From: Desulfobacteraceae bacterium
GTDB taxonomy: Bacteria; Desulfobacterota; Desulfobacteria; Desulfobacterales; Desulfobacteraceae
Length of the DNA: 64,000 bases
Direction of reading: 5' to 3'
Assembly (NCBI GenBank): GCA_024226935.1
Contig: JAAELK010000394.1
Coordinates: 1-64,000 of the forward strand
Shown here: one piece after another, positions 40,633 through 61,789 of the stretch
Layout: every line of letters begins with the position of its first letter
Position numbering within the stretch: the first letter of the stretch is position 1
Position numbers and translations under genes: made by a program
The notes under the pieces: model-generated
The model's database searches: none
What the model was told of the DNA's origin: nothing
What the model saw: only the letters and a program-made list of their open reading frames with translations

Positions 40633-41559
40633 ATGAAATTTAATAACTCTTTGGGATTAATAGAAAATACTCCATTGATTGAGCTGCAAAATATTTTAAA
40701 GTGTCCAGGGAAAATATATGTAAAAGCGGAGTTTGTCCAGCCTGGCGGCAGTATAAAGGACAGGGCGGCCCTTCATATAATCAAGGATGCCTATGCCAGA
40801 GGAAAGCTTAAAGAAGGTCAGCCAGTTGTTGAAATGACAAGTGGCAACATGGGGGCAGGTCTTGCCGTTGTGTGCAATTTATACCGCAATCCATTCACCG
40901 CCGTCATGTCCGAGGGTAACAGCCCTGCCCGGGCTAAAATGTTGGAGTCACTTGGTGCCAATGTTGTGCTGGTTCCCCAGATTGATGGGGCTGCAGGCCA
41001 GGTAACAGGGAACGATATTAAGGCTGCAACAAGAAGAGCAATCTCTTTGACCGAAGAATTAAATGCTTTCTACGTGGATCAATTTAATAACCCTTCCAGT
41101 GTTTCTGCCCATTTCAAGGGTACTGGTCCGGAGCTATGGCAGGAACTGGGAAATGAATTAACTGCATTTGTAGCTGGGGTGGGCAGCGGGGGAACCTATG
41201 TCGGTACAAGTAAATTTTTAAAGGGAAAAAACCGGAGTATAGTTTGTGCTGCCGTTGAGCCTGAGGGTGCACAGATTCTGGCTGGAAAACCGATTATCAA
41301 TCCCCGGCACAATATGCAGGGCATAGGTTATTGCATTAAGGTGCCGCACTGGGAACCGAAACTTGTTGACCATTACTTGATGGTTAATAGTGATGAGGCC
41401 GCTTATTACCGCAGGCTCCTTGCCCAAAAAGAAGGACTGTATGTTGGGTTTTCAGCCGCCGCAAATGTTTGCGCGGCAGTGAAATTCATTGAGAAGGGTC
41501 TTGGGGGGGCATCACCGATTGTAGCCACAATATTGTGTGATACGGGATTAAAGTATTAA
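40633..41559 (+). CDS. Cysteine synthase-like PLP enzyme with altered substrate loop
   Basis: A 308-residue fold-type II PLP enzyme. The PLP lysine is in GGSIKDRAA and the phosphate cup is GSGGTYVGTS. The Asn loop reads TSGNMG where cysteine synthases have TSGNTG, the helix after it (MSEGNSPARAKM) differs from METMSIER, and the C-terminal GERYLS motif is replaced by CDTGLKY. It is a relative of O-acetylserine sulfhydrylase, but the substrate may differ. It stands alone after comF. Confidence 0.85.
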   Translation: MKFNNSLGLIENTPLIELQNILKCPGKIYVKAEFVQPGGSIKDRAALHIIKDAYARGKLKEGQPVVEMTSGNMGAGLAVVCNLYRNPFTAVMSEGNSPARAKMLESLGANVVLVPQIDGAAGQVTGNDIKAATRRAISLTEELNAFYVDQFNNPSSVSAHFKGTGPELWQELGNELTAFVAGVGSGGTYVGTSKFLKGKNRSIVCAAVEPEGAQILAGKPIINPRHNMQGIGYCIKVPHWEPKLVDHYLMVNSDEAAYYRRLLAQKEGLYVGFSAAANVCAAVKFIEKGLGGASPIVATILCDTGLKY

Positions 41560-58460: not shown

Positions 58461-60812
58461 ATGACAGCTTCCATAATAAACTTGATTGGTAATACTCCCA
58501 TAGTTGAAATAAAGAGTATAAATCCTGTGCCCGGTGTGAAAATTTTTGCCAAACTTGAGTATATGAATTCGGGGGGGTCTATTAAAGACCGGGCCGCTTT
58601 GTACATGATTACGGCAGCCGAGGCCGCAGGTCATCTTTCTTCTGATAAAATAGTGATAGAAGCCACCAGCGGTAATACCGGCATAGGTCTTGCCATGATC
58701 TGTGCAGTAAAGGGGTATAAGATTGCTTTGACCATGGCACAAAATGCCAGTGAGGAAAGAAAGCAGATTCTACAGGCCCGGGGGGCTCAGATTATCCTGA
58801 CCCCCAAACATCTGGGATCCGACGGAGCCATCGAAGAGGCCTATCGTCTGGCAAGGGAAAATCCGGATCAATATTTTCTTGCAGATCAATATAATAATGA
58901 GGCAAACTGGAAAGCCCACTATCATACCACAGGTCCGGAAATCATGGACCAGACCAACGGAAAGGTCACAAGTATTGTGGCAAGCATCGGCACTTCCGGA
59001 ACCCTCATGGGCCTGTCCCGGTATTTTAAGCAGGTTGATCCAAAAATCAATATTGTTTGCGCCGAACCCTATCTGGGTCACAAAATCCAGGGTTTGAAAA
59101 ATATGAAGGAATCCTATGTTCCCGAAATATTTGATAAAAAACGGTTGGATGCTACCATTCGTGTGGATGATGACAGAGCTTTTGAAACGGCAAGGCAACT
59201 GGCAAGAGTTGAGGGTTTGTTTGTGGGCATGAGCAGTGGTGCTGCCATGGCTGCTGCCATTGAACATGCCCAAAATATTCAAGAGGGCGTTGTGGTGGTT
59301 ATTTTTCCAGATGGTGGTGAACGCTACCTTTCCACCCAGCTTTTTTCGGTGGAAAAAAAGATTGATCTGAAGGTGTACAATAGTTTTACCAAACAAAAAG
59401 AGCTGTTTGTGCCCATTGAAAAAGATAAGATCGGTATATATACCTGCGGCCCCACTGTGGATCAACGCCTGCATATAGGGTTGTTCAGGCGCTTTGTCTT
59501 TACTGATCTTTTGATACGCTTTCTTGAATTTCACCAATTTATTGTTAACCATATCATTAATATAACAGATTACGATGATAAAACCATTGAGGGGGCTGGG
59601 AAAACAGGCCAATCCGTTGATGCCTTTGTCCTTCCCAATATTGCAGCTTTTAAAGCGGATCTTGCAACTTTGGGTTTGCGCCCGGCCCAGACTTACCCCA
59701 GGGTCTCCGATCATTTTACTGAAATGACGGATTTATCAAGGACTTTGCTGGACCGCCACCATGCCTATGAAAAATTGCATTCGGTGTACTTTGATATTGC
59801 AAGCCAGCCGGAGTATGGTGATTTTTCAAAGGTGGATCTCAATAAGATACGCCTTGGGGCGACCGTTGATCTGGATGGGTATGAAAAACGTAATCCCAAG
59901 GATTTCACTCTCTTAAAGCGGGTTCGTCTTTCGGAGTTGAAAAGAGGGGTGGGGATAAAGACAGAGTGGGGCAATGTCAGGCCCTCTCTTCATTTGCAGT
60001 GTTCCGCCATTGCCATGAGATATCTGGGCAAGCAGTTTGATATTCATACCGGAAGCAGGGATCTTTTATTTCCCCACCATGAAAATGAAATTGCAATTGC
60101 CAGGGCCGCCACCGGATCAAGTCTTGCTAATGTATGGATGCATTGTGATCCGGTCCAGTATGATGGGTCATTAGGAAAAGGTGATATAGAAGAGATAAAT
60201 CTTGATACTCTTATTCACCAGGGGTGGGATGCCAAAACCATCAGATTCTGGCTGATCTTTGGGCATTATAGAAAACAATTGGTCTTGTCAATCAAGGGAT
60301 TGCGGGATGCAAAATATACCCTTGTCAAAATTAACAGATGTATTGAAACCCTGGGTGCCATCACCATGGGGGGGACATTTGAAGCGGGTGATACTTTGGA
60401 AGAGGATGATACCTTGGAAGTGGGGCAAGCGTTGGATGATATCGATAAATTTGAAAATAATGATCAATTGATTTATGATATTCGTCAGGGAGTCCTGTCT
60501 GCAATGGCAGATGACCTGAAGGTTTCAGATGTCATTTCCTGCCTTCTTCTGGGGGTAAAAAAAATAAATCGTTTGATAAACTTGAATCAAATCAATGCTG
60601 TTGGTGCCAAGGGCCTGCTTTCATGTTTCAGGGAAGTGGACTCCATATTAAAAATATTTGATTTTAATTCAAAAATGGAATATTCCAAGGCTGCCCAGTC
60701 TCTTATGAAGGAACGCGATGAGGCCAGGCTCAAAAATGACTGGATTCTGGCCGACAAGATTCGGAACAAGCTTGTGGCCATGGGCGTTTGTGTTCATGAT
60801 AAAAAGGTGTGA
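58461..60812 (+). CDS. Cysteine synthase fused to a cysteinyl-tRNA synthetase-like domain
   Basis: A 783-residue fusion. Residues 1-297 are a complete cysteine synthase: PLP lysine K42 in GGSIKDRAA, TSGNTG, GTSGTLMG, GERYLST. Residues 305-783 follow cysteinyl-tRNA synthetase to the end: TCGPTV, HIGLFRRF for HIGH, zinc ligands C329, C514, H539 and E543, ITDYDDK, and the C-terminal ADKIRNKL helix. The KMSKS loop is lost: residues 566-576 read QYDGSLGKGDI. So the adenylation step may be changed or absent. One frame spans both domains with no linker. A related enzyme, MshC, uses a CysRS fold to attach cysteine to a sugar. AGGACGTTT precedes the ATG. Divergent from lptD; followed by an unknown gene. 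Confidence 0.88.
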   Translation: MTASIINLIGNTPIVEIKSINPVPGVKIFAKLEYMNSGGSIKDRAALYMITAAEAAGHLSSDKIVIEATSGNTGIGLAMICAVKGYKIALTMAQNASEERKQILQARGAQIILTPKHLGSDGAIEEAYRLARENPDQYFLADQYNNEANWKAHYHTTGPEIMDQTNGKVTSIVASIGTSGTLMGLSRYFKQVDPKINIVCAEPYLGHKIQGLKNMKESYVPEIFDKKRLDATIRVDDDRAFETARQLARVEGLFVGMSSGAAMAAAIEHAQNIQEGVVVVIFPDGGERYLSTQLFSVEKKIDLKVYNSFTKQKELFVPIEKDKIGIYTCGPTVDQRLHIGLFRRFVFTDLLIRFLEFHQFIVNHIINITDYDDKTIEGAGKTGQSVDAFVLPNIAAFKADLATLGLRPAQTYPRVSDHFTEMTDLSRTLLDRHHAYEKLHSVYFDIASQPEYGDFSKVDLNKIRLGATVDLDGYEKRNPKDFTLLKRVRLSELKRGVGIKTEWGNVRPSLHLQCSAIAMRYLGKQFDIHTGSRDLLFPHHENEIAIARAATGSSLANVWMHCDPVQYDGSLGKGDIEEINLDTLIHQGWDAKTIRFWLIFGHYRKQLVLSIKGLRDAKYTLVKINRCIETLGAITMGGTFEAGDTLEEDDTLEVGQALDDIDKFENNDQLIYDIRQGVLSAMADDLKVSDVISCLLLGVKKINRLINLNQINAVGAKGLLSCFREVDSILKIFDFNSKMEYSKAAQSLMKERDEARLKNDWILADKIRNKLVAMGVCVHDKKV

Positions 60813-60817
60813 CCATT

Positions 60818-61789
60818 ATGATAAAAACTTTATTTTTTCCATTTTCCCATATCAGTAAAGATCAATTGAAAACAATAACAACATTTTTTCCGAAGGTTGG
60901 TTTTTTGCCCCCGGCAGCAGATTTTAAATCTGACCCGATTCTGGCTTCCCTGGCCCAAAAAGATATCTTACAACCGGTATTTGCTTCGGTCCTGGATCTT
61001 GGGTTGGTTGAAAAACAGGTGAGTTCCTATATGGACTGGGCGCAGCTTCATCGCGGCAATGAAAAAAATTTTCAATCTTTGCTCAAGGACCAGCCTTATT
61101 TTGTAGATGATACCGGGATTTCCAATATCCAATCCCAAATTAGAAGTGGAATACAAAAAAAACAGGATTCATCCGACCGGAAAAAAGTTGTACCAGATCC
61201 TTTATTGTTATTAAAATTTGCCCAATTGCTGGATTCCCAGAATGAAGGTATAGATGATAGTTTAAAGGCCGTGGAACACAGTCAGGCTTCGCTTTTTTCA
61301 AAATTGTTGGCAACGGGTCCGGAAAAAACAATTGAAAAGCCTGCACCTGGCTCATGTGATTTGCCATCCCTGGATCCAGGTAGAATAATGACCGAAGAAA
61401 GAGTTAAGTCCTGGTTCAGATATGCATCTAAAAAGAAAGTTTTCAACCTGCCGGGTGCCTCTCCTCTTTTGATTACCACGAGTCCGGCTGTGTTGGATTA
61501 TATGGAATCCAAGTCCAAAGGTGTGATAAATGCCCTTGACAAAGATTTCATAAAAGTGCATGAAAATGGATGTGAAAATAAATCCAGATGGCAGCAGGAT
61601 TTTTGCCAATTTTTGGAAGAAGTAATTTTGAGCAAAAATTCTTCCGGGATTATACAGCCTGGAGCAGATGATGGATGTTTTTGTTCCGGCCAGATTAAAT
61701 TGCGTCTTTTCCCGGAAGACGGCATGGAGGAGTTTTTTGATGCATCAGGTCAGTCGATTGCTGTCTGTCTGATACAATTAAAATCATAA
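60818..61789 (+). CDS. Unknown protein after the CysK-CysRS-like fusion
   Basis: A 323-residue protein starting at ATG 60818 with AAGGTG upstream; the frame runs on the stop of the fusion gene. There is no signal peptide or membrane helix. The middle (ASLFSKLLATGPEKTIEKP) is linker-like. Conserved-looking blocks are LPSLDPGRIMTEERVKSWFR, PLLITTSPAVLDYMESK and FCSGQIKLRLFPE. I do not recognise a domain. The tight spacing suggests it works with the fusion enzyme. Confidence 0.65.
   Translation: MIKTLFFPFSHISKDQLKTITTFFPKVGFLPPAADFKSDPILASLAQKDILQPVFASVLDLGLVEKQVSSYMDWAQLHRGNEKNFQSLLKDQPYFVDDTGISNIQSQIRSGIQKKQDSSDRKKVVPDPLLLLKFAQLLDSQNEGIDDSLKAVEHSQASLFSKLLATGPEKTIEKPAPGSCDLPSLDPGRIMTEERVKSWFRYASKKKVFNLPGASPLLITTSPAVLDYMESKSKGVINALDKDFIKVHENGCENKSRWQQDFCQFLEEVILSKNSSGIIQPGADDGCFCSGQIKLRLFPEDGMEEFFDASGQSIAVCLIQLKS

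Follow-up and report, generated by a model that had tools for sequence, protein, structure and literature searches.

Why should an enzyme that makes cysteine be joined, in one polypeptide, to a copy of the synthetase that uses cysteine? The question is raised by a gene in a 64,000-nucleotide stretch of Desulfobacteraceae DNA, the whole of which we call the window. The initial annotation, made from the sequence alone, described this gene as a cysteine synthase fused to a cysteinyl-tRNA synthetase (CysRS)-like domain that has lost KMSKS, and offered two explanations, a new cysteine-transfer reaction comparable to that of MshC or a weak synthetase. Among the matches listed in our literature search, no paper describing a cysteine synthase-CysRS fusion was found by title or start of abstract.

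The fusion gene, its distribution and its canonical counterpart

The single frame of 783 codons is open throughout, with no internal stop, and encodes an intact PLP cysteine synthase followed by a CysRS-like domain without KMSKS (Table 1). Pfam recognizes in it, in this order, PALP (residues 7-284, E 2.3e-72), tRNA-synt_1e (316-617, 1.2e-70) and the anticodon-binding CysS_C (741-782, 2.7e-5); the fusion is thus real, as had been described, and it recurs in 109 distinct fusions, to which 143 fusion frames were reduced and among which near-copies remain (the contig-end fragments L045, L047 and L048 were excluded). The AlphaFold model of the 783 residues (pLDDT 90.3, pTM 0.78) aligns over residues 1-300 with the structures of Mycobacterium tuberculosis CysM (Z 44.7, rmsd 1.3-1.4) and over residues 302-783 with E. 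coli CysRS in complex with tRNA-Cys (1u0b; Z 45.5, 437 residues, rmsd 3.8).

Table 1. Location of the fusion gene, its functional sites and the adjacent gene in the window
Feature	Position	Strand	Basis
Fusion gene, cysteine synthase + CysRS-like domain, 783 aa	58461..60812	+	ORF, Pfam
CysK/CysM-type PLP cysteine synthase domain, aa 1-296	58461..59348	+	PALP; TIGR01136 above cut-off
Codon of PLP lysine K42	58584..58586	+	K42 in 109/109 fusions
CysRS-like domain, aa 303-783	59367..60809	+	Pfam; alignment to E. coli chain; structure alignment
Zinc ligand Cys329 (others Cys514, His539, Glu543)	59445..59447	+	Alignment
HIGH position, reads HIGL	59472..59483	+	Alignment
KMSKS place, reads DGSLGKG...	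60156..60200	+	Alignment
Anticodon-contact residues R752, R756, W761, D765, R768, D780	60714..60800	+	Alignment to E. coli R423, R427, W432, D436, R439, D451
Next gene, 323 aa from ATG 60818	60818..61789	+	Family adjoining fusion in 60/110 loci

The fusion protein was matched at E <= 1e-100 in 130 of 147 genomes of the class and in 99 of 247 genomes of the phylum; among the latter 99, four are matches to the synthase half only and a fifth, in G234, covers residues 3-344. Contig ends cut some of the matches short. A contig scan, which reached close relatives only, returned 13 loci, their titles being Desulfobacteraceae, Desulfobacula, Desulfobacterales, Deltaproteobacteria and, in one case, 'Proteobacteria'. 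The named relatives carrying the fusion are mostly Desulfobacteraceae and Desulfobacula MAGs.

The second, canonical cysS, for which the initial annotation had advised to search, was found: the window's genome (6.09 Mb, 590 contigs) contains a separate match of the canonical type (C490, 461 bits). Among the 61 phylum genomes with the fusion, another CysRS match was lacking in just two, which are 79% and 82% complete; in one of the 59 others, G192, the match is a contig-end fragment. These matches rule out the fusion as the sole cysS. In the CysRS tree, built by FastTree with the motif columns removed, the 109 distinct fusions and 31 canonical enzymes (the 30 best-scoring loci from the phylum search and the window genome's own CysRS) lie on opposite sides of one branch with a support of 100, several deep forks of the tree being weakly supported. 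A third CysRS match was seen within the long frames G226:C27:36639-38012 (729 aa) and G189:C1:594025-595398 (742 aa), perhaps another CysRS fusion.

Loss of the active site and retention of the anticodon-contact residues

All 31 canonical enzymes keep H338, G340, H341, K571, M572, S573, K574, C329, C514, H539 and E543 (window numbering), HIGH and KMSKS being fixed in this set with the exception of the Ile of HIGH. In the window HIGH has lost its last histidine, KMSKS is absent, its place reading DGSLGKGDIEEIN, and all four zinc ligands (CCHE) are present in the alignment, as had been noted from the sequence. Throughout the 109 fusions the first HIGH histidine is retained in 46 and the last one in 16, while KMS[KR]S is retained in 12, all of them distant, in which cysteine activation may still be possible. 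Close homologues, where a functional KMSKS would have pointed to a sequence error in the window, share its loss; the loss is common to the window's genus and family, which rules such an error out. Both zinc cysteines are found in 93 of the 109 fusions and the full CCHE set in 80, the zinc cysteines being lost in 16. On the tree the least number of changes of state is 12 for KMSKS, 17 for HIGH and 8 for zinc; if only losses are allowed, the counts are 10, 20 and 3, respectively. Not listed in the initial annotation is the replacement of a Trp that lines the cysteine pocket and is fixed in all 31 canonical enzymes; position 510 of the window protein has Leu instead. As a whole, the fusion resembles canonical bacterial CysRS (E. 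coli, 1u0b/1li7; TIGR00435) in the fold over residues 302-783, in the zinc ligands of the window protein and in the anticodon-contact residues; it differs in having neither HIGH nor KMSKS, in being joined to a synthase, in accompanying a second copy in nearly all genomes and in scoring below the TIGR00435 cut-off (306.6 vs 340 bits).

The C-terminal part behaves differently. When residues are numbered by aligning the fusion with the E. coli CysRS chain, the equivalents of R423, D436, R439 and D451 are kept in all 108 fusions that cover the region, that of R427 in 107 (one has Lys), and the position of W432 is aromatic in 108 of 108. The window protein has all six of these residues, and so do all 16 fusions that lack the zinc cysteines. 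L150 (G183) was left out of the C-terminal counts as its frame ends early; the match to its C-terminal part lies in a different frame, which has a TGA, and a frameshift or a split gene is possible there. R439 and D451 of the E. coli enzyme we take to be anticodon contacts of tRNA-Cys. Arg423, Arg427, Trp432 and Asp436 are reported to contact the anticodon base G34 of tRNA-Cys in 1u0b (PMC12684709).

When 101 columns invariant in the canonical enzymes are compared, the mean retention in the 108 fusions is 0.44 for the 22 active-site columns and 0.998 for the 5 anticodon columns. For the 69 other columns of the catalytic part the mean is 0.68, and 20 of them are fully kept; complete conservation is therefore not peculiar to the anticodon residues. 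Within residues 690-783 only seven columns are occupied by the same residue in 104 or more of the 108 fusions, and five of these seven are anticodon columns. Tests of this retention gave p 0.0013 and 0.015, both post hoc, since the conservation was seen first, and the contacts and column groups were assigned afterwards. As judged by these alignments, the contrast between the loss of the active site and the retention of the anticodon residues is strong, though not absolute.

The dN/dS ratios (Nei-Gojobori; the window and four relatives of its genus) are 0.055-0.111 for the synthase and 0.086-0.135 for the catalytic CysRS fold; in the same five sequences they are 0.17-0.29 for the C-terminal part of the fusion. 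Such low values mean that the CysRS-like domain is in use, and the value of about 0.1 in the catalytic fold rules out a decaying pseudogene domain. One might suppose that the domain is used as a structural or assembly module, its anticodon residues being kept for folding or for contacts within the protein. The 20 fully kept residues outside the anticodon site would agree with this supposition, as would the similar dN/dS of the synthase and the catalytic fold. However, the C-terminal residues that are kept include the four reported at the anticodon in 1u0b, and they sit where little else is fixed and dN/dS is higher. We therefore consider a purely structural module unlikely, although it fares better than the other alternatives.

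A true bifunctional enzyme, which would make cysteine and also charge tRNA-Cys weakly in spite of the missing KMSKS, is less probable still. The zinc ligands and anticodon residues of the window protein and the KMS[KR]S of the 12 distant relatives speak for it; yet in the window the last HIGH histidine has gone together with KMSKS, in other fusions the first histidine has gone as well, and a further CysRS match accompanies the fusion in the window's genome and in almost all others. The weak synthetase of the initial annotation is not supported either: the decay goes beyond KMSKS, HIGH histidines having been lost too and 16 of the 109 fusions lacking the zinc cysteines, while the anticodon-contact residues stay.

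The same pattern tells against the other explanation put forward from the sequence, transfer of cysteine in the manner of MshC. MshC (3c8z, TIGR03447) is, like the fusion, derived from CysRS, and its profile does match the fusion (E 8.8e-43), in which the cysteine site is partly retained. The score of 146.6 bits, however, lies below the cut-off of 485.1, the profile covers residues 299-668 and the MshC structure aligns to residues 301-734, so MshC stops short of CysS_C. MshC is reported to adenylate cysteine (PMC2922099), and the anticodon domain lies outside its profile; the fusion is the reverse, with the ATP motifs lost and the anticodon domain kept. The recurrent neighbours of the fusion, judged by eye, do not resemble a sugar or thiol pathway either, and a ligase joining cysteine to a small molecule seems to us very improbable. 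The loss of the ATP motifs and the retention of the anticodon contacts argue, rather, for a domain that binds tRNA and does not charge it, and such a putative tRNA-binding, non-activating role would fit the alignments better than either MshC-like transfer or a weak synthetase.

The cysteine synthase half and the cysteine pathway

The catalytic motifs of the synthase are intact in the fusions, the PLP lysine included. The fusion thus resembles CysM/CysK (3dki, 2bhs; TIGR01136) in having a complete catalytic domain that scores above the TIGR01136 cut-off (362.5 vs 344.15), the narrower CysM and CysK models remaining below theirs; it differs in carrying the C-terminal pseudo-CysRS. The best-scoring synthase structure is CysM of M. 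tuberculosis, O-phosphoserine-dependent by its title, tied with CysM of E. coli. Residue R220 of the M. tuberculosis enzyme presumably serves the phosphate substrate, and K213 occupies its position in 109 of 109 fusions; since E. coli CysM also has arginine there, K213 does not settle the substrate.

CysE (serine acetyltransferase) is the usual feedback point of cysteine synthesis. In a set of 42 fusion genomes and 29 genomes without the fusion, picked by hand and not at random, where absence means no match at the stated E in a possibly incomplete genome, a CysE match (E <= 1e-20) was found in 17 of the 42 and in 23 of the 29 (Fisher p 0.0015). None of the CysE matches reaches the TIGR01172 cut-off; a second CysE model gave strong matches in the same 17 genomes, 14 of them above its cut-off, and weak ones in 13 more (best E 8e-16). 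All 17 genomes have at least one more CysKM match, whereas in 23 of the 25 without CysE the fusion is the only CysKM match at E 1e-50, the two exceptions being G294 with one more CysKM and G296 with a split extra gene. Fusion-less genomes without CysE are represented by G179, G181 and G185, which have CysKM; in G067, G131 and G169 there is no match to the fusion, CysKM or CysE, the genes being perhaps missing from the assembly. SerA, which is needed for O-phosphoserine, is present in 24 of the 25 CysE-less fusion genomes, in 23 of them above the family cut-off. This gene content makes it likely that the fusion synthase uses O-phosphoserine.

The 17 genomes, the window's among them, have CysE and another CysK as well, so that the fusion is not their sole route to cysteine. 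The window's genome contains three further CysKM matches, of which two fall short of the family cut-off. In the window, a CysK-like gene of 308 aa lies at 40633-41559 (+) and scores below the TIGR01136 cut-off (244 bits); the frame upstream of it looks, by eye, like a ComF-type phosphoribosyltransferase.

As for the synthase acting on aminoacyl-tRNA-Cys held by the pseudo-synthetase, so that cysteine would be made on tRNA by a PLP analogue of SepRS/SepCysS, the fusion of a synthase to a fold that keeps the tRNA-Cys contacts and the lack of a CysE match in 25 of the 42 fusion genomes are in its favour. The synthase, however, keeps the TSGNTG motif, which we assume to hold the free carboxylate and which points to a free amino acid as the substrate, and a canonical CysRS is present; we give this possibility as little credence as the MshC-like one. 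The lysine motifs KIIKS and KMSKS are said to hold PLP for the synthesis of cysteine persulfide by CysRS. A CysRS-derived cysteine-persulfide synthase is the least credible of all the readings: persulfide formation by CysRS has been reported (PMC5660078, in which the PLP-holding role of the two motifs was not found), but KMSKS is lost here, and the KIIKS place is KTIEG in the window and KTIQG or KTIEG in 35 of the 109 fusions.

Proposed role of the fusion

Comparison of sequences establishes the fusion, its paralogy, the loss of motifs, selection, the kept contacts and the link to the absence of CysE. From these data we infer the binding of tRNA-Cys, the substrate and the direction of control. 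The reading that we prefer, though we would put its chances of being right no higher than those of being wrong, is that in many related bacteria the fusion acts as a CysE-independent cysteine synthase, probably converting O-phosphoserine and sulfide to cysteine, and that its pseudo-CysRS binds tRNA-Cys and controls or places the synthesis. The pseudo-CysRS would bind tRNA-Cys without charging it, charging being left to the separate canonical CysRS, and its zinc site may still bind cysteine in most lineages, the window's included. Uncharged tRNA-Cys could then serve as the signal of cysteine shortage that controls the synthase; alternatively, the binding of tRNA-Cys might place the synthase beside the charging machinery. 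The narrower version, an O-phosphoserine synthase gated directly by tRNA-Cys, so that the charging state of tRNA-Cys would set the rate of CysE-independent cysteine synthesis in a large phylum of anaerobes, is a tentative proposal that we hold to be distinctly less probable.

HisZ descends from HisRS. Control of this kind would be analogous to the activation of HisG by HisZ and to the sensing of uncharged tRNA by the HisRS-related domain of Gcn2, as both are reported (PMC10795190, PMC10998830, PMC4335047), in that a regulatory part governs another enzyme. In contrast to those systems, the fusion involves a copy of a class I enzyme, CysRS, joined to the synthase of its own amino acid. If the proposal is true, it extends synthetase-like control to a class I synthetase and to an enzyme making the cognate amino acid, and it bears on cysteine synthesis and its control in bacteria without serine acetyltransferase. 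A synthetase copy that has repeatedly lost the ATP motifs and, in 108 members, hardly ever the anticodon residues is also a natural experiment on the retention of paralogues.

The adjacent gene

The 64-kb window contains neither a tRNA nor a match to any Rfam family at the gathering score, and no tRNA-Cys gene was found in 60 loci from relatives. What does accompany the fusion is the gene that follows it, whose possible start ATG is 5 nt past the fusion stop and which the initial annotation had suspected of belonging to the same system. The suspicion gains from its being a conserved neighbour: a member of its family lies next to the fusion in 60 of 110 loci, downstream on the same strand in 56 and upstream in 4, the side varying by lineage (the window and L006 represent the same next gene in this count). 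The 50 other loci are without the family, some of them with too little flank to tell. The gene product has no Pfam or NCBIfam family at E 0.001, and when E values up to 1 are allowed, any one Pfam family matches at most two of the 49 members examined. Its model (pLDDT 82.7) has no Foldseek match at E <= 0.001, and the best Z in a second structure comparison was 4.3. Six residues are invariant across the 49 sequences, and dN/dS in the five sequences of the genus is 0.28-0.345. The constant place of so fast-evolving a gene suggests that it shares a role with the fusion.
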